IMG/VR virus record: IMGVR_UViG_3300033146_000515
Span: 1-24,115 of that record
Origin: a virus
Strand: one strand, 5' to 3'
Length of the DNA: 24,115 bases
Shown here: positions 12,703 through 20,002 of the stretch, piece by piece
Position numbering within the stretch: the first letter of the stretch is position 1
How the letters are laid out: each line of letters begins with the position of its first letter
Program-made: the position numbers and the translations under genes
The notes under the pieces: generated by a model
Told to the model about the DNA's origin: nothing
What the model saw: only the letters and a program-made list of their open reading frames with translations
The model's database searches: none

Positions 12703-13065
12703 ATGATAGTTGCGAGTAAAACAAATATAAAAAAAGCCTGTAAAGGTAAGAAATTGCAAGCAGGAGGTAAGTGCCCACATAAAGGCCCTATGATGCGCAA
12801 GAAAAAGAAGGTCATGAAGAAGGTGCAGAATATGGATAAAAGGCTCTCAAAAGTAGAGGGAAAAGTGAACTCTATGGAAAAAGGAGGAAAGTCTGACATT
12901 CATATAAAGCCCTCTATGGAAGGTACTTTTACTGAATGGTGTAAAAGGCAAGGGTTCAGCGGTGTGACAAGCGAGTGTATAAGCAGGGGTAAAGCTAGCA
13001 AAGATGCTAGAATCCGAAAGAAAGCTACCTTTGCTGATAATTCAAGAGAATGGAACCATGGATAA
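12703..13065 (+). CDS. Basic small protein with coiled coil and IHIKPS...FT domain, 120 aa
   Basis: The N-terminus carries the leader in an extended form ending in KLQAGGK (residues 17-23), with Cys13 and Cys25 flanking it. Residues 34-65 are a Lys-rich likely coiled coil (KKVQNMDKRLSKVEGKVNS). Residues 67-120 form a compact domain beginning IHIKPS, then EGTFTEWCKRQG, and ending KKATFADNSREW. From memory, this HIKPS-x-x-G-x-FT ... R-x-x-A-x-FA-x-N-x-x-x-W pattern occurs in many small phage and large-virus proteins, and its role is not known to me. The very basic composition would suit nucleic-acid contact or packaging. The stop overlaps the next start by 8 bases. Confidence 0.65.
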   Translation: MIVASKTNIKKACKGKKLQAGGKCPHKGPMMRKKKKVMKKVQNMDKRLSKVEGKVNSMEKGGKSDIHIKPSMEGTFTEWCKRQGFSGVTSECISRGKASKDARIRKKATFADNSREWNHG

Positions 13066-14584
13066 TATAATACGACGACCTGGAGATAGTTATGAATACG
13101 CGAGAAGCGGAAACGACTACTATACAAGAAGAAAGGGCAGTAGTAAGTGGATAAAAACAACAGGAGCGGCTAGAAACGCTATCGCTAAACTGTATGGAAA
13201 TACTAGTCCAGCTGCAGCGCCAAAACCGGAAACTCCAGCGTCTACTGCAGAAGAAATCCGTACAATTAATACCCAAATAATACAACAACCTAGGCAGCAG
13301 TATCTTAATAGAGAAAAGCAATGTGCTAAGGGTATGTGTAATATTTGGGAGGCTGCTGGAGTAGATACAGAAAGTGCTGGTATGCGCCATAAGAACGCCT
13401 GGGGAATGCTTGGCTCCATACTATTTCATGGTGGTGATAAGATATTCAACTTGTATGAGGACAACCTAGATAAATTTAAAGATCTTAAATCACCGGAAGA
13501 TATTAAGAGTGCTACAAAAGCAGTGCTGGATCAGAATAAAGACTATATCGGCAAACTAAAACCAGGTGACGTAGTAGGGCTATTCTATGAACCATCAACG
13601 CATCATATGGAAGCTTATGGTAGTAAAGATCCTTTTGCGTTTCCGGATAAACACGGAGGCAGTCTATTAAATTATGTAGCATCTGCTATGGGTCTTGGAG
13701 GCGAGCATACATATAATACACACGTTGGCTATGTAGCTGATATTAAAAACGGTGTGCCAATAATCGCTCATAATATCGGAGGCCATTTGCATTTAGATCC
13801 AATAACTAAGCTAGCACCGACTTGGGCTGCTAGACCAGATGTAGATGAGCTAGAAGGTATTAAAGCTGGAAAAAATACTGTAGCAGATACTTTTAAAAAG
13901 GCTGCACAACAAAATCCTAATCCTGACGGCGATTATGATATCGATGAAATACTTGATAAAGATTCCCCGGTGCATAGTGCGATGCTGGATAAGGTACGCA
14001 ACCAGTATAGAAGAAGTGGCGTAAAAAGTAAGTATTATTACGTAGTGTACAAACCTACGGATACTATGTATCGCATTGACATCAATACTGGTGATTATGA
14101 GCGACTCGGTAAAGTCGGTATAGGAAGAAACGTAGGAGATAGGGATGTAGCTCATCCAGGCAAAGCTAGAGGAACGTTCAAAACCCAAAAAGGCTGGGCT
14201 AGAATAAACAGGGCTGCTGAGACTAAAACGGATGAGGAAAAGGAAAATTATGGTAAGAAATTCTTCGGTTTCAGTGGTTATGATCCACAAACTAAAAAAT
14301 GGTATAATTTACCGACCGGTGTTCACGGAACAGGTAAGGAAACAATGGGTAGATACTCTCATGGGTGTACTAGAATGGGATGTGAAATGGAAGATCAGGT
14401 AATCCCAGATTTGCAGAAGGGTACTATGTTCTATTATGTATCTGACGATAAAGCATCTCCTTATGATAAGTTAGATGCAGCAGTAACAGGTTTAGTCGGT
14501 GGTGTATCGAATTTCTTTAAAAAGGATGGTGGAAAACTTAAAAGACCTTTCATCTTATACAAAAAACAAAATAATTATGGATAA
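13058..14584 (+). CDS. Bifunctional cell-wall protein: papain-like cysteine peptidase plus L,D-transpeptidase (YkuD)
   Basis: This 508-residue protein has two enzyme-like domains. At about 85-245 there are Cys89 and Cys94 in QCAKGMC, a GDVV turn, His222 in THVGYV and His238-Asn239 in AHNIGG. That order (Cys, His, polar) and the GD-V / HVG-V context are typical of NlpC/P60 and CHAP-type amidases that cut peptidoglycan peptides. At about 330-480 is an L,D-transpeptidase domain with the signature His423 (GVHGTG) and SHGCTR (His435, Cys437 nucleophile, Arg439). Such enzymes remodel peptidoglycan crosslinks, usually in the periplasm. There is no signal peptide, as expected if it is delivered by a virion or released at lysis. 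An upstream ATG at 13004 is in frame, but 13058 overlaps the previous gene and is the better start. The C-terminus ends FILYKKQNNYG, echoing the leader of neighbours. Confidence 0.82.
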   Translation: MDNIIRRPGDSYEYARSGNDYYTRRKGSSKWIKTTGAARNAIAKLYGNTSPAAAPKPETPASTAEEIRTINTQIIQQPRQQYLNREKQCAKGMCNIWEAAGVDTESAGMRHKNAWGMLGSILFHGGDKIFNLYEDNLDKFKDLKSPEDIKSATKAVLDQNKDYIGKLKPGDVVGLFYEPSTHHMEAYGSKDPFAFPDKHGGSLLNYVASAMGLGGEHTYNTHVGYVADIKNGVPIIAHNIGGHLHLDPITKLAPTWAARPDVDELEGIKAGKNTVADTFKKAAQQNPNPDGDYDIDEILDKDSPVHSAMLDKVRNQYRRSGVKSKYYYVVYKPTDTMYRIDINTGDYERLGKVGIGRNVGDRDVAHPGKARGTFKTQKGWARINRAAETKTDEEKENYGKKFFGFSGYDPQTKKWYNLPTGVHGTGKETMGRYSHGCTRMGCEMEDQVIPDLQKGTMFYYVSDDKASPYDKLDAAVTGLVGGVSNFFKKDGGKLKRPFILYKKQNNYG

Positions 14585-16799
14585 TGAACTATGGGTTCCG
14601 GATATAAAATTATGTACGGAACAACATAAATTTAGAATGGAAAATGAGTGGAAGAGGAGCACTGGTGGAGAGATGAAACCGTCGATGTTAGGCATCGAAC
14701 GCTATAGGTGGGGACCAGTACTTCCGGATAAGTTTTATGAAGGAAGGAATCCACCGCCAGTACCGATAGATTCTGCAGAGAATATAGAATGGTACGAGGA
14801 GCAATTACGACGTTCTATATATGGGTTTGAATATAAAGGGTTTAGAATAACTGGAGACCATTATTGGGCCCTTAATTTCGTACCATTTCTTATAGCATTA
14901 AAGGATAAAAACGGAAATCCAACCACAAATTTCGACATTGACTTTCCATACTTCTCATACATGCACGATTATATCTTCAAATTAATCGAAGAAGCCCACC
15001 ACGAAGGAAAAGGATTCATGTGGATGGCTGGTCGTGCTGTTGGTAAGTCATATCTACTAAACAGTATAATAGCTAAATATTACTATTTAAAACCTAATAG
15101 CCACTCTGTTGTAGCGTGTACAAACGCACACCATACAAATGAAACCTTTGGAAAGCTGAAAGATATGCTTATTGCTATCGATAAAGCCCATCCAACACTG
15201 GCCTTAGCTAGATTAGAAGATACCAAATACTTTATCCGTTCTGGATATGAAGTAAACAGAGACGGTGTTAAGATGGAAAGTGGTCCAATGTCTAAAGTAC
15301 AAGGACTTATCTTCGGTGATAATCCGGATGCTACAAGGGGAACACGTCCTGATATATTCTTCATGGATGAGATTGGTGCGTGGTCAACCGGTAAAGCTAA
15401 CTTAAAAACCTGTATCTCAGCATCATGGGGATCATGGAAAGTAGGTAGTATTAAGAAAGGTCGTGTATTCATGGCTGGTACTGGTGGATCAGTTGCTTCA
15501 GACCAAGCAAGGGAGATATTTACTAATCCTAAAGCTTATAATTTACTAGCTGTTAATGATTTTGCTGTAGCCGGTAAAAAGACTTATCATTGCATGTTTC
15601 TTCCTGCTGATTACTTATATGGAGGTATGTGGGAAAAATATGGAGTCAATAATAACGAAGAGTCTAGGAAAATCCTGGACCAAGAACGTGAGGATACTAG
15701 AGAAGACATCGAACTCCATGATAAGATTGTTCAGGAATTCCCATACACGATAGAGGAAGTATTCCAGAAGAAGGGTACAAACATCTTCAATCAGAAGAAG
15801 ATAGCCAAGCAATGGACAGATATTCAATTCGGTGCAGATCATATAATTAAGCCTGAGAGAGGATTTCTTGAATGGAAACGCTCTAAGTCTGGAAAGATTG
15901 TAGGCGTGGAGTGGGTACTTAACCCGAACGGTAATATAGAGATAGTAGAGCATCCCTTTAGAGGAAAGAGTGGAAAAGAAATATTTAATGATCTCTATAT
16001 AGCCGGGGTAGATAGTATTGACCAGGGTAAGTTGGATTCAACATCAACAAAGGATAGATCATCCTTAGCATGTCTTATAAAGAAGCGTATTGTAGATGGA
16101 GCTTATTTCAGCCAGACGTCAAACATTTACGTAGCTAAATACTTAGGAAGAAGCTTGGATGTTAGAGATGACTATGAAGAAGTACTAAAGCTGTCTATGT
16201 ATTACAATGCTAAAGTAAACTTAGAGTATACGAAAGTAGGTCTAAGACAGTTCTTTATAGAAAAGCATCAATTCCACAGACTGATGAAACGTCCGGCAGT
16301 AGCTATGCCTTCGGCTTCAGACGGAGATTTGAAGAGACTCGGATATGATAACAGACAACATCTAATAGGCACAACAACCGCTACGCATGTTATCGATCAC
16401 CAGGACGGAAAGATCAAAGAATACATACAAGACTTCTGTCATCTAATATTCTTCGAGGATCTGCTAGAGCAGCTTAGAGACTATGATAGAGAAGATAGGA
16501 AGAAGTCTGACCTTGTTGTAGCTATGGGCCTATGCGAGATCGCAGACGAAGATATGCTGGGAGAGCCTGCTAAAGCTATGGAGAGCGTTAGTCAGGAATT
16601 AGAAGAATTCGGATACTACTATGACGAATACGGATTCAAACATTTCGGCGTAATACCTAAAAAGAATAGAGTAACAATAAATGACTTTATAGAAGAGGAT
16701 AATCGTATGGGCTACAGGTGGATAGACTCTACCGGAGTACCAAGATTTGATGATAAGTACGATGTGCAAGACGCAAGAGACTTAGAATTTGAACAATAA
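14577..16799 (+). CDS. terL: Large terminase subunit (TerL)
   Basis: The 740-residue protein is the packaging motor. The Walker A motif GRAVGKS is at residues 152-158 in MWMAGRAVGKSYLL, and Walker B is IFFMDE with Asp264-Glu265. The nuclease half starts at AGVDSIDQG (Asp479, Asp482) and has a late acidic site at SDLVVAMG (Asp645), as in the RNase H-like nuclease of terminases. Its length is on the long side for TerL. ATG 14577 overlaps the end of the preceding gene by 8 bases. The longer reading from 14499 translates the neighbouring gene in another frame, so I reject it. It is followed by a small gene and a co-chaperonin-like gene before the portal. No small terminase subunit is obvious next to it. 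Confidence 0.95.
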   Translation: MDNELWVPDIKLCTEQHKFRMENEWKRSTGGEMKPSMLGIERYRWGPVLPDKFYEGRNPPPVPIDSAENIEWYEEQLRRSIYGFEYKGFRITGDHYWALNFVPFLIALKDKNGNPTTNFDIDFPYFSYMHDYIFKLIEEAHHEGKGFMWMAGRAVGKSYLLNSIIAKYYYLKPNSHSVVACTNAHHTNETFGKLKDMLIAIDKAHPTLALARLEDTKYFIRSGYEVNRDGVKMESGPMSKVQGLIFGDNPDATRGTRPDIFFMDEIGAWSTGKANLKTCISASWGSWKVGSIKKGRVFMAGTGGSVASDQAREIFTNPKAYNLLAVNDFAVAGKKTYHCMFLPADYLYGGMWEKYGVNNNEESRKILDQEREDTREDIELHDKIVQEFPYTIEEVFQKKGTNIFNQKKIAKQWTDIQFGADHIIKPERGFLEWKRSKSGKIVGVEWVLNPNGNIEIVEHPFRGKSGKEIFNDLYIAGVDSIDQGKLDSTSTKDRSSLACLIKKRIVDGAYFSQTSNIYVAKYLGRSLDVRDDYEEVLKLSMYYNAKVNLEYTKVGLRQFFIEKHQFHRLMKRPAVAMPSASDGDLKRLGYDNRQHLIGTTTATHVIDHQDGKIKEYIQDFCHLIFFEDLLEQLRDYDREDRKKSDLVVAMGLCEIADEDMLGEPAKAMESVSQELEEFGYYYDEYGFKHFGVIPKKNRVTINDFIEEDNRMGYRWIDSTGVPRFDDKYDVQDARDLEFEQ

Positions 16800-16856: not shown

Positions 16857-17057
16857 ATGGAAAATGTAGAAACTGTAACAGTAACTTTAGCAACACTTAA
16901 TGCAACTTTAGAGTATTTAGATACTCGACCACACAGAGAAGTAGCTGGATTAATCGCGGCTTTAATAAAAGAAGCAAATGCTTTCAGAGCAACAGCAGAA
17001 ACTGAGTCGGAAGTAGTACCTGAAACTGAACAAGTAAACGAAATAGTGGAAAAATGA
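16857..17057 (+). CDS. Small hypothetical protein, 66 aa
   Basis: The protein appears helical, with a Thr/Val/Ala-rich beginning (VTVTLATLNATLEYL), a helix with VAGLIAALIKEANAF, and an acidic tail ending in EIVEK. It has no known motif. It is the first gene after the 57-base gap that follows the terminase. Its TGA overlaps the ATG of the double-GroES gene, so the two are translationally coupled. It could assist that chaperone or be a head-assembly factor, but the sequence does not tell. Confidence 0.55.
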   Translation: MENVETVTVTLATLNATLEYLDTRPHREVAGLIAALIKEANAFRATAETESEVVPETEQVNEIVEK

Positions 17058-17662
17058 TATTAGAAAGTCATGAGCAAATAAATCCGAAACGAGACATGGT
17101 TCTCGTTGAAATGATAAGGTTAGATGAGATACAAGAGGGTCTAGTATTAGAACGAGATTCCGACGCAACAGATGTAGCAATAAGGTATGGTAAAGTCCTA
17201 AGTATAGGAGATAAAGTTGATATGCCGGAGCATTGCCCAGGACTAAAAGTAGACGAGATAGTCATATTTACTGAGTTTGCTGGATACTATGTAGTTACTA
17301 AGGAAGAGAAATTATTAAAGCTGATACGTGGTTACGATATAGTTGGAAAGTATGAAAATATGGAAAAAATGAATAAAGATGTAGCGCCGACTGCAAATCG
17401 ATTGCTGGTCGAAGAATATGATATGAATGAAGGATCTGACTTAATACTTAACACAACATCAAGAGATCCTAGATTAGCAGATATGCACTATGGTAAAATT
17501 ATCGGTATTGGACCTTCTGTAAAAGATGAGGACCTTAGTGTAGGAATGCTTGTAGCCTACGCTACATATGTCGGAACACAGATACGAGAAAAAGAATCTG
17601 ACACTGTTAAAGCACTTAAGATAATAGTCGAAGAGGATATATTACTTACAATAACAACCTAA
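17054..17662 (+). CDS. Tandem GroES/Cpn10-domain co-chaperonin
   Basis: The 202-residue protein has two GroES-type beta-barrel domains in a row, about residues 10-100 and 110-200. Each has the order of Cpn10: an opening strand (RDMVLVE / NRLLVEE), a mobile loop, a GKVLSIG / GKIIGIG strand, a V-D-E-IVIF / VGMLVAY strand, and a closing strand (YDIVGKY / EDILLTI). The mobile loops keep the hydrophobic tripeptide that binds GroEL: LVL at 30-32 and LIL at 130-132. GroES helps GroEL fold proteins, and phages such as T4 (gp31) and others encode their own for the capsid protein. A double-domain form is known in plant chloroplast Cpn20 but is not the usual phage layout. It follows the small gene by an ATGA overlap and is closed by a terminator. 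Confidence 0.82.
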   Translation: MILESHEQINPKRDMVLVEMIRLDEIQEGLVLERDSDATDVAIRYGKVLSIGDKVDMPEHCPGLKVDEIVIFTEFAGYYVVTKEEKLLKLIRGYDIVGKYENMEKMNKDVAPTANRLLVEEYDMNEGSDLILNTTSRDPRLADMHYGKIIGIGPSVKDEDLSVGMLVAYATYVGTQIREKESDTVKALKIIVEEDILLTITT

Positions 17663-17713: not shown

Positions 17714-20002
17714 ATGATATCACAATATCCACAAGTATACTACGAGGATTTTTATTTAACGGAAGCGGATAAAAATGACAAGGAGTACCTTATGGCTAAC
17801 GCTGATCACTGGATCGCGGTGTTGGTAGAGCCTAAGACACACATTAAAACATACCGTAATTACTATAATGGCGTCAGAGATGATAAGGAGTTTCAGTACC
17901 TAACTGAGAACTACGGAATAGGTACACCTTCAGCACTAAAATTTACAAATCTTATTAAACCAAGAGTAGACGCTCTTGTGCATCAGTTAGAATCAGATTC
18001 TTATTCATACACTGTATCTGCAGTGGATGATAAAACTGTGGATATGATACAGCAGGAGAAGAAACTTAAAAAGATACAGGAGGCAGAAAATATACTAAAG
18101 CAATTTACCGTAAAAATGAAATCAGCGGTAGAAGCTGAAAAGGATAATCTCCCAACATTTTCTGAACTGCAGGATGCTCTAGAACGTGTACATAAGAAGT
18201 ATGAAACAAACTTCATATCAGATCTGGAAGTAGCTGTGCAACATGTTTGCGATTATTTTGAACACAGCAATCAAATGATGCTGCGTCATAAACTATCACT
18301 GCTTGTTCACGATCTGATAGTAACCGGAGAATGCTATTATAGGGTTCATTACGAGCGAGAAGGTCAAGACCCAATATTCGACGTTATCAAACCAGAAAAT
18401 TTCTTCCATAATAAAAGTACTAACTCACCATTTATCGACACAACAGACGCAGTAGTACACAGAGAGTATTTGACGCATAAAGAGGTCGCTCAGCGCTACG
18501 GAAAGTTTATGTCGCCTGAAGATATCAAAAAACTATTTGGTGAGCGCTACATGTCTAAAACAGCGCGTACATTGAATTCTGGTTTAGATCTAAATCTGTA
18601 TTACAGCGATGAAGATCCAGTCTTAACGCAAAGATATAAATCTGCAGCATATACAATTGAAGTGTGTCACGTAGAATGGTTAGCTACTAATGAAGTAGAA
18701 ATCGACGAAGAAGAGCAGAATTATTTAACAATATTAACGGACGGTAAGAACTTTAAAGCAAGAAAGAAAGTAAGAAGGACTGATCGCTATGAATGTACGC
18801 GTATTGGAGGTACAGTTTATGTTAATGCTGGTAAAAATGATGACGTACCAAGATCACAACAAGATCCCTACTCTTGCGGTTTCTCTTATGGAGGAGTGCT
18901 ATTCAGTGATAGAAACGGCAAACCTTACTCTGTTGTAGGCGCTCTTAAAGATCTTCAGGACCTGTATGATCTCACCATGTTCTACAGAGATAACTTGATA
19001 GCCAATTCTGGCGTCCCTGGAGATAGAATTAACGTAGCTGGTATACCTAAGGTACTTGGTAAAGATTTCATGACCAGATTACTTAAATTTATAGCATTAA
19101 AGAAAAATGGTGTAGAACTAATTGATCCCACCGAGCAAGGAGCTCAACTATTCCAACATTACGGCTCATTCGATAACTCAGTTAATGGAAACTCGTTGAA
19201 CGCCATTAATGCGGTTCTACAACAGATAGAGATGCAGGCACACATGATAGCCGGCACTACACCACAAATGCTAGGATTCATAGAAGAGCGTGATGCTGTA
19301 ACTAATGTTAGAGCCGGAATAAAACAAGCACTAGGAACTAATAGTTATCTATTTGAACTATTCAGAGCTAATCAAAATCGCCTGATGTCAGATCTGATTA
19401 AGGTATCACAAATTACTTATAAAAAGGGTAAGAAAATTTCATATGTTGTCGGAGATGAAGCCTATGTATTTGATATCATACCAGAGAAGTACTCCTACTC
19501 TGATTATGCAATATCCATATCATACGCATCAAGAGATGAGCAAAAGCTGCAAGCATTACAAATGCTAGCTAAAGAGTTAGTCGGTGCTGGAATGATCGAT
19601 CCTGATGTATTAGTTAAAGCGGTACTATCAAATTCAATAGTAGAAGTGAACAGAGTAATTACTGAAAACTGGAAGAAGAAACAAGCAGAAAATGATCAAA
19701 TTGCGCAAGCTTCGCAAGCAATTGAACAGTATGAAAAACAGATTAAAGAACTTACATCAGAACTCAACAATGTTAAGCAACAGCTTGAAGCAGCTAAGAC
19801 AGCTAATGACCAAGCAAAAATGTACGAAGTTCAGCAAAAAGCTAAAGAAGCCGAAAAGAAACTTGAGCTTGAGGAACAAAAACTTAAAGACACCAAGGCT
19901 TATAATGAGAAGCAGATTGAACTTAAGGAACAAGTAGTTCAGTTAGAAAGAGAACAGCTCTATATGGGAACTGGGGCAGAAAAAGAAGTTAAAAACTTAT
20001 AA
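17714..20002 (+). CDS. Portal protein
   Basis: This 762-residue protein has the character of a phage portal. It has an N-terminal region with THIKTYRNYYNGV, a helical, charged middle containing a coiled coil (about residues 110-180), and a mixed core with a Gly-rich stretch near SQQDPYSCGFSYGG. Then comes a helical 'stem-like' part around GIPKVLGKDFMTRLLKFIALKKNG. The end (about 650-755) is a very long Gln/Lys/Glu-rich coiled coil, a feature I associate with portals of crAss-like and related phages. A dodecamer at the capsid vertex through which DNA is packaged and ejected is the known role of such proteins. It follows the terminator after AAGAAGAGAT, a weak ribosome binding site, and the next gene starts 2 bases after its stop. 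I rely on size, shape and position, not on a single motif. Confidence 0.85.
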   Translation: MISQYPQVYYEDFYLTEADKNDKEYLMANADHWIAVLVEPKTHIKTYRNYYNGVRDDKEFQYLTENYGIGTPSALKFTNLIKPRVDALVHQLESDSYSYTVSAVDDKTVDMIQQEKKLKKIQEAENILKQFTVKMKSAVEAEKDNLPTFSELQDALERVHKKYETNFISDLEVAVQHVCDYFEHSNQMMLRHKLSLLVHDLIVTGECYYRVHYEREGQDPIFDVIKPENFFHNKSTNSPFIDTTDAVVHREYLTHKEVAQRYGKFMSPEDIKKLFGERYMSKTARTLNSGLDLNLYYSDEDPVLTQRYKSAAYTIEVCHVEWLATNEVEIDEEEQNYLTILTDGKNFKARKKVRRTDRYECTRIGGTVYVNAGKNDDVPRSQQDPYSCGFSYGGVLFSDRNGKPYSVVGALKDLQDLYDLTMFYRDNLIANSGVPGDRINVAGIPKVLGKDFMTRLLKFIALKKNGVELIDPTEQGAQLFQHYGSFDNSVNGNSLNAINAVLQQIEMQAHMIAGTTPQMLGFIEERDAVTNVRAGIKQALGTNSYLFELFRANQNRLMSDLIKVSQITYKKGKKISYVVGDEAYVFDIIPEKYSYSDYAISISYASRDEQKLQALQMLAKELVGAGMIDPDVLVKAVLSNSIVEVNRVITENWKKKQAENDQIAQASQAIEQYEKQIKELTSELNNVKQQLEAAKTANDQAKMYEVQQKAKEAEKKLELEEQKLKDTKAYNEKQIELKEQVVQLEREQLYMGTGAEKEVKNL

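Follow-up and report, generated by a model that had tools for sequence, protein, structure and literature searches.

Tandem co-chaperonin gene and its protein

The viral DNA analyzed here (hereafter the window), which probably belongs to a gut-type (crAss-like) phage, is a stretch of 24,115 nucleotides, positions 1-24,115 of the IMG/VR record IMGVR_UViG_3300033146_000515, and it encodes a co-chaperonin with two GroES (Cpn10) domains in one chain. The open reading frame (ORF) at 17054-17662 on the plus strand is intact and encodes 202 amino acids (aa). The original prediction of two tandem GroES domains in a single phage protein is confirmed: Pfam Cpn10 (PF00166) matches two stretches (E = 8e-10; 39.1 bits against a curated cut-off of 21.1), PHROG 3188 (“co-chaperonin GroES”) has two matches (E = 2.5e-13), and two barrels are modeled. 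Chance resemblance of the second half to GroES was considered and rejected on the basis of Pfam, the AlphaFold2 model, and custom GroES profiles. The gene and its parts are as follows, where pLDDT is the predicted local distance difference test score.

17054..17662, plus strand: tandem (two-domain) GroES/Cpn10 co-chaperonin, 202 aa (PF00166 twice, PHROG 3188 twice, AlphaFold2 barrels, Cpn20 7ekq_R)
17078..17353, plus strand: N-terminal GroES domain, residues 9-100 (PF00166 profile positions 2-93 of 93; strands E15-20 to E98-100)
17114..17173, plus strand: N-domain mobile loop, residues 21-40, with the patch L30-V31-L32 (low pLDDT; conserved hydrophobic positions)
17384..17653, plus strand: C-terminal GroES domain, residues 111-200 (PHROG 3188 stretch 110-200; strands E116-121 to E196-200)
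17420..17482, plus strand: C-domain mobile loop, residues 123-143, with the patch L130-I131-L132 (low pLDDT; conserved hydrophobic columns 131-133)

The full-length tandem form is also encoded by 16 other IMG/VR viral contigs, and all nine relatives that were scanned contain two Cpn10 stretches by Pfam and PHROGs. Pairwise identity in an alignment of 14 tandem sequences ranges from 24 to 60%, and the motifs FTEFAGY and RGYDI of the N-terminal domain are among the best conserved in the family. Cys61 (window 17234-17236) is invariant in 14 of the 14 aligned sequences and is located in a short stretch between two strands of the N-terminal domain, at the position of the GroES roof hairpin.

Predicted structure and mobile loops

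The AlphaFold2 model of the window protein, computed from an alignment of 14 proteins from the window and the loci, has a pLDDT of 83.4 and a predicted template modeling score (pTM) of 0.80, and contains two GroES barrels and two flexible loops. The strand order of the N-terminal half (E15-20, E43-51, E69-73, E78-80, E88-92, and E98-100) is repeated in the C-terminal half (E116-121, E144-152, E166-170, E175-178, E188-192, and E196-200). The parts of the model with low pLDDT are residues about 21-40 and 123-143, where GroES has its mobile loop, which suggests that these loops are flexible rather than packed. Strand order in both halves and the loop tripeptides LVL (30-32) and LIL (130-132) are thus present as originally predicted, and the model contains neither a half without a barrel nor a buried loop, either of which would speak against the prediction. 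A second family member (from L009) was modeled separately with similar scores (pLDDT 85.5, pTM 0.82).

The closest solved structure is a plastid co-chaperonin. A profile of the tandem family (A6) has its best match, over the full length, to Chlamydomonas Cpn20 (7ekq_R; E = 7e-10), and fold searches with both AlphaFold2 models rank the same chain first, with template modeling (TM) scores of 0.64 and 0.65 when the two domains are taken together, while single-domain GroES chains reach only about 0.25-0.34. Since both domains superpose on 7ekq_R at once, their arrangement resembles that of neighboring domains in a lid. Many GroES structures, including 1g31_A, are also matched by the tandem models in Foldseek.

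Conservation within the two loops is concentrated in the hydrophobic patches, and their surroundings are polar and variable. At its first two positions, the N-loop patch is hydrophobic in 13 and 14 of the 14 aligned proteins and then in only 8 at the third, and the C-loop patch in 14, 13, and 11 at columns 131-133, which lie one column beyond LIL (130-132) in the alignment. In either loop, the best adjacent column pair has 27 hydrophobic cells out of 28, whereas the maximum after shuffling of residues within the loops was 17 and 19 such cells, and 0 of 20,000 shuffles reached the observed level; as the aligned sequences are related and not independent, this result is evidence of constraint and not an exact probability. 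The mobile loop of GroES is the part that docks on GroEL (PMC5780408). In light of the conserved patches, both domains of the phage protein probably dock on GroEL as well, the N-terminal domain with less certainty.

Gene neighborhood

The tandem gene is located between the genes for the terminase large subunit (TerL) and the portal protein, in the following order.

14586..16799, plus strand: terminase large subunit, upstream neighbor (PHROG 6681, E = 2.6e-66)
16857..17057, plus strand: small conserved ORF, 66 aa (its stop codon overlaps the co-chaperonin start in ATGA)
17714..20002, plus strand: portal protein, downstream neighbor (PHROG 6547, E = 3.5e-53)

A search of related phages for the double-domain form next to terminase and portal genes, as the original prediction proposed, found the same position in all 14 loci that were read gene by gene, and in L065. 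Along most of its length, the window TerL shares about 24-31% identity with TerL of crAss-like and other Bacteroidota phages, and the window portal protein is 56-72% identical to those of five tandem-bearing relatives. Searches (tblastn) with the tandem protein and three divergent relatives returned zero matches among 50,697 phage records, and a scan of 84,980 bacterial and archaeal genomes with the tandem alignment and TerL found no relative and named no host or prophage.

Several other features of these loci were observed. An ORF of 69-92 aa similar to the small ORF, with a pattern like LNxxxxYLxxRPYxEVxxLI, lies a short way ahead of the tandem gene in the majority of the relatives examined, and the small ORF is possibly a translationally coupled partner. 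Four relatives have long versions of the terminase, with about 350 codons more than that of the window (L001 1-2808, L008 1538-4819, L011 4442-7696, and L029 7935-11267). In L001 and L008, the insertion point is the Walker A motif (GK^T), and the insert starts with Gln, ends with HN, and looks like an intein, which the window terminase lacks. Upstream of the terminase, a 526-aa protein (window 13004-14584) has a C-terminal L,D-transpeptidase (YkuD) domain by Pfam, and several otherwise differing proteins share a short N-terminal peptide resembling MILYKKPIKAQ or MILYRKYQxGG, which is possibly a virion-targeting or cleaved leader sequence. Its sites are listed below.

Window: 529, 3632, 5130, and 7007
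L010: 1273, 3000, and 3821
L011: 3603
L012: 4536
L026: 1334, 3364, 4607, and 6358
L008: 298

Phage GroEL in two long relatives

Two long crAss-like carriers of the tandem gene also encode a GroEL. The first, G001 (128.8 kb, no terminal repeat seen), encodes a GroEL of 529 aa (PF00118, E = 3.8e-33; PHROG 5725, E = 4e-93), and the second, G031 (175.3 kb), encodes one of 532 aa (PF00118, E = 3.6e-42); the 121-bp direct terminal repeat of G031 indicates that this genome is probably complete. The two GroEL proteins are 35% identical, and their genes have similar neighbors, namely a gene for 371 or 395 aa (ligase-like by eye) and a gene for a protein starting with “MARY...”. From these similar neighbors, groEL has probably been passed down with the phage lineage at a conserved locus. 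A crAss-type major capsid gene (PF23898) is present in both genomes, and the window ends ahead of the capsid gene. The capsid gene of G001 (L049 989-3562) is split by a homing-endonuclease-like ORF, which suggests an intron.

Scans with PF00166 and PHROG 3188 overlooked the known tandem gene of G031, and the absence of a single GroES was therefore rechecked with custom, unfiltered GroES profiles, which were run on the six reading frames of both genomes and detected no Cpn10 except the tandem gene. As positive controls, these profiles recovered the single GroES genes of four further phages; the four are among the sources of the “singles” profile, so the controls demonstrate a working search but not how far it extends. 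A search for groEL in further tandem carriers gave distant phage GroELs only. The two long carriers hence seem to use a GroEL of their own that is capped by tandem subunits only.

Proposed mechanism and alternatives

The best explanation for the whole is a phage-encoded group I chaperonin lid, in which two fused GroES units cap a GroEL ring, and we consider this highly probable. We infer its docking, stoichiometry, partner, and client as follows. The tandem protein would be a co-chaperonin lid of two GroES units fused head to tail, each with one mobile loop whose hydrophobic patch would dock on the apical domain of GroEL in the manner of GroES and T4 gp31. One GroEL ring would be closed by three or four such chains, perhaps together with one host GroES subunit, and the two halves of each chain would sit side by side in the lid, like those of chloroplast Cpn20. 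In two relatives or more, the lid probably pairs with a GroEL encoded by the phage itself, which is likely, though unseen, for the 24-kb fragment as well. A lid is not used by every phage GroEL, as that of phage EL does not interact with Escherichia coli GroES (PMC7185714). The likely client is the major capsid protein, or else other proteins of the virion, as suggested by the location of the tandem gene within the terminase-portal cluster and by analogy with T4 gp31 and the capsid protein gp23, which provide a precedent for a capsid client (PMC3012670).

Several observations weigh against this explanation. The superposition on Cpn20 is loose (root-mean-square deviation about 6 Å overall), and the AlphaFold2 models are monomers, from which stoichiometry cannot be read. 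The relative L001 (APLSA) has no full N-loop tripeptide, and the third N-loop position is often Thr, so the N-terminal domain may bind more weakly. Moreover, the window stops short of any groEL region, and we infer the pairing in its phage.

The tandem protein could instead join the single-domain GroES of the host (e.g., three tandem chains plus one GroES, giving seven domains) and re-aim the host GroEL, in the manner of Cpn20 and Cpn10. Chloroplast lids are indeed hetero-oligomers with seven domains (PMC5780408), and the chains of 7ekq (one Cpn11, one Cpn23, and two Cpn20) add up to 1+2+4 = 7; Cellulophaga phage phi18:3 likewise has two types of Cpn10, single (gp80) and two-domain (gp96), which would allow 3x2+1. 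However, the two long crAss-like carriers have their own GroEL and no detected single Cpn10, and a single-domain partner is not required: apicoplast Cpn20 is the only co-chaperonin of its organelle, works alone, and can replace GroES, and concatamers of 6 or 8 domains are functional (PMC5780408). A mixed lid therefore seems unlikely. The seven-fold mismatch would also have a simple answer if only the C-terminal domain bound GroEL, in a seven-chain lid with the N-terminal domain, a degenerate spacer or cavity-enlarging collar, as a second tier. The C-loop patch is the more complete of the two and is often preceded by Gly, as in GroES, while the N-loop patch is weak at its third position and its tripeptide is lost in L001. 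Yet the two best N-loop columns are conserved far beyond the shuffles, FTEFAGY and RGYDI belong to the N-terminal domain, and the modeled arrangement is like that of the side-by-side domains of Cpn20, all of which makes binding by the C-terminal domain alone rather improbable. A GroES fold repurposed for the virion or head assembly, with no chaperonin lid, would fit the location of the gene inside the packaging cluster and a weak match of the tandem protein to PHROG 931 (“head morphogenesis”), but it would leave the conserved hydrophobic loop patches without an obvious structural use and does not account for the GroEL of the long relatives; we consider it very improbable.

The fused-GroES lid may be taken one step further. 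The crAss-like lineage may have its own complete chaperonin, dedicated to the capsid, with a tandem-only lid of six or eight domains or an altered ring symmetry; we propose this tentatively, as a plausible extension. The tandem form may also enlarge or reshape the folding chamber for the capsid protein, as the original prediction suggested.

Origin of the duplication

In a tree of the domain halves, the 14 N-terminal and 14 C-terminal halves fall on separate sides in 100% of bootstrap trees, and this clean split indicates that the duplication predates the tandem group. The halves of Cpn20 and other phage GroES sequences are placed outside the tandem phage halves, on long branches and with modest support (93/87). 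At that support, the domain tree gives no sign that the phage protein and plastid Cpn20 descend from one tandem ancestor, and acquisition of the gene from plastid Cpn20 was rejected on this tree, though the branches are long. The best reading of the sequences is a tandem duplication independent of Cpn20, with an uncertain deep placement.

An even number of lid domains on a seven-fold chaperonin is a question already raised for chloroplast Cpn20, whose natural lids include single-domain subunits. The two long phage genomes, in which the profiles detected no lid gene but the tandem one beside a GroEL gene, offer a natural two-gene system for this question and for asking what leads certain phages to encode a folding machine themselves. 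The family also suggests that the tandem lid arose a second time, probably independently.

Comparison with known systems

Phage co-chaperonins (gp31 and CocO) and phage GroEL/GroES pairs are already known. T4 gp31 and RB49 CocO have their fold in common with the tandem protein, as 1g31_A among the Foldseek matches illustrates. However, these two are single-domain heptamers that work with the host GroEL, whereas the tandem family has two domains per chain, and thus differs from gp31-type subunits, with a phage GroEL in two long relatives. Phage GroEL is matched by 231 GenBank phage records. The Flavobacterium phages immuto and elemo and MW202828, which are Bacteroidota-type phages, also have a phage GroEL/GroES pair, but their GroES is single-domain and adjoins groEL, while the tandem lid is encoded in the packaging cluster, far from groEL. 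The closest TerL relative among GenBank phages (31%) belongs to the gut phage MT835470, which has a Cpn10 domain upstream of TerL; this Cpn10, however, is a single domain in 183 aa with a GGLII loop and a weak Pfam score, and the record has no GroEL match.

The original prediction described known phage co-chaperonins as single-domain, which is correct for T4 gp31 but incomplete, as gp96 of Cellulophaga phage phi18:3 (PHROG 13932; Baltivirus, Pachyviridae) is likely two-domain. Foldseek searches against viral models aligned most of the query with this 200-aa “chaperonin cpn10” and with three unnamed proteins. Labeled simply “cpn10” in GenBank, gp96 is probably another two-domain phage Cpn10: it has about 200 aa, its C-terminal half is Cpn10 by Pfam, and its gene is just upstream of terminase and portal genes in a phage of a Bacteroidota host. 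On the other hand, it has no tblastn similarity to the tandem family and matches by fold only, and its N-terminal half is not found by Pfam. In the same phage, a single GroES is encoded separately (gp80), and there is no match to GroEL. Its single and two-domain Cpn10 genes (L063 31108-31362 and 41458-42060) are a chloroplast-type pair, for which 3x2+1 = 7 domains would be possible.

The literature that was searched contained no description of tandem GroES in phages or of GroES in crAss-like phages. Until now the tandem layout has been described mainly in chloroplasts, and although gp96 means that a two-domain phage Cpn10 is not wholly new, the crAss-like tandem GroES family is, as is its occurrence together with a phage GroEL but without a detected single GroES. 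The nearest counterpart is chloroplast/apicoplast Cpn20 (7ekq chain R), which likewise has two head-to-tail GroES domains and two mobile loops in about 200 aa. The two differ in that identity is only about 21% and the phage protein is viral and lacks a transit peptide. By analogy, the phage protein may work like Cpn20, but it is not classed as a Cpn20.
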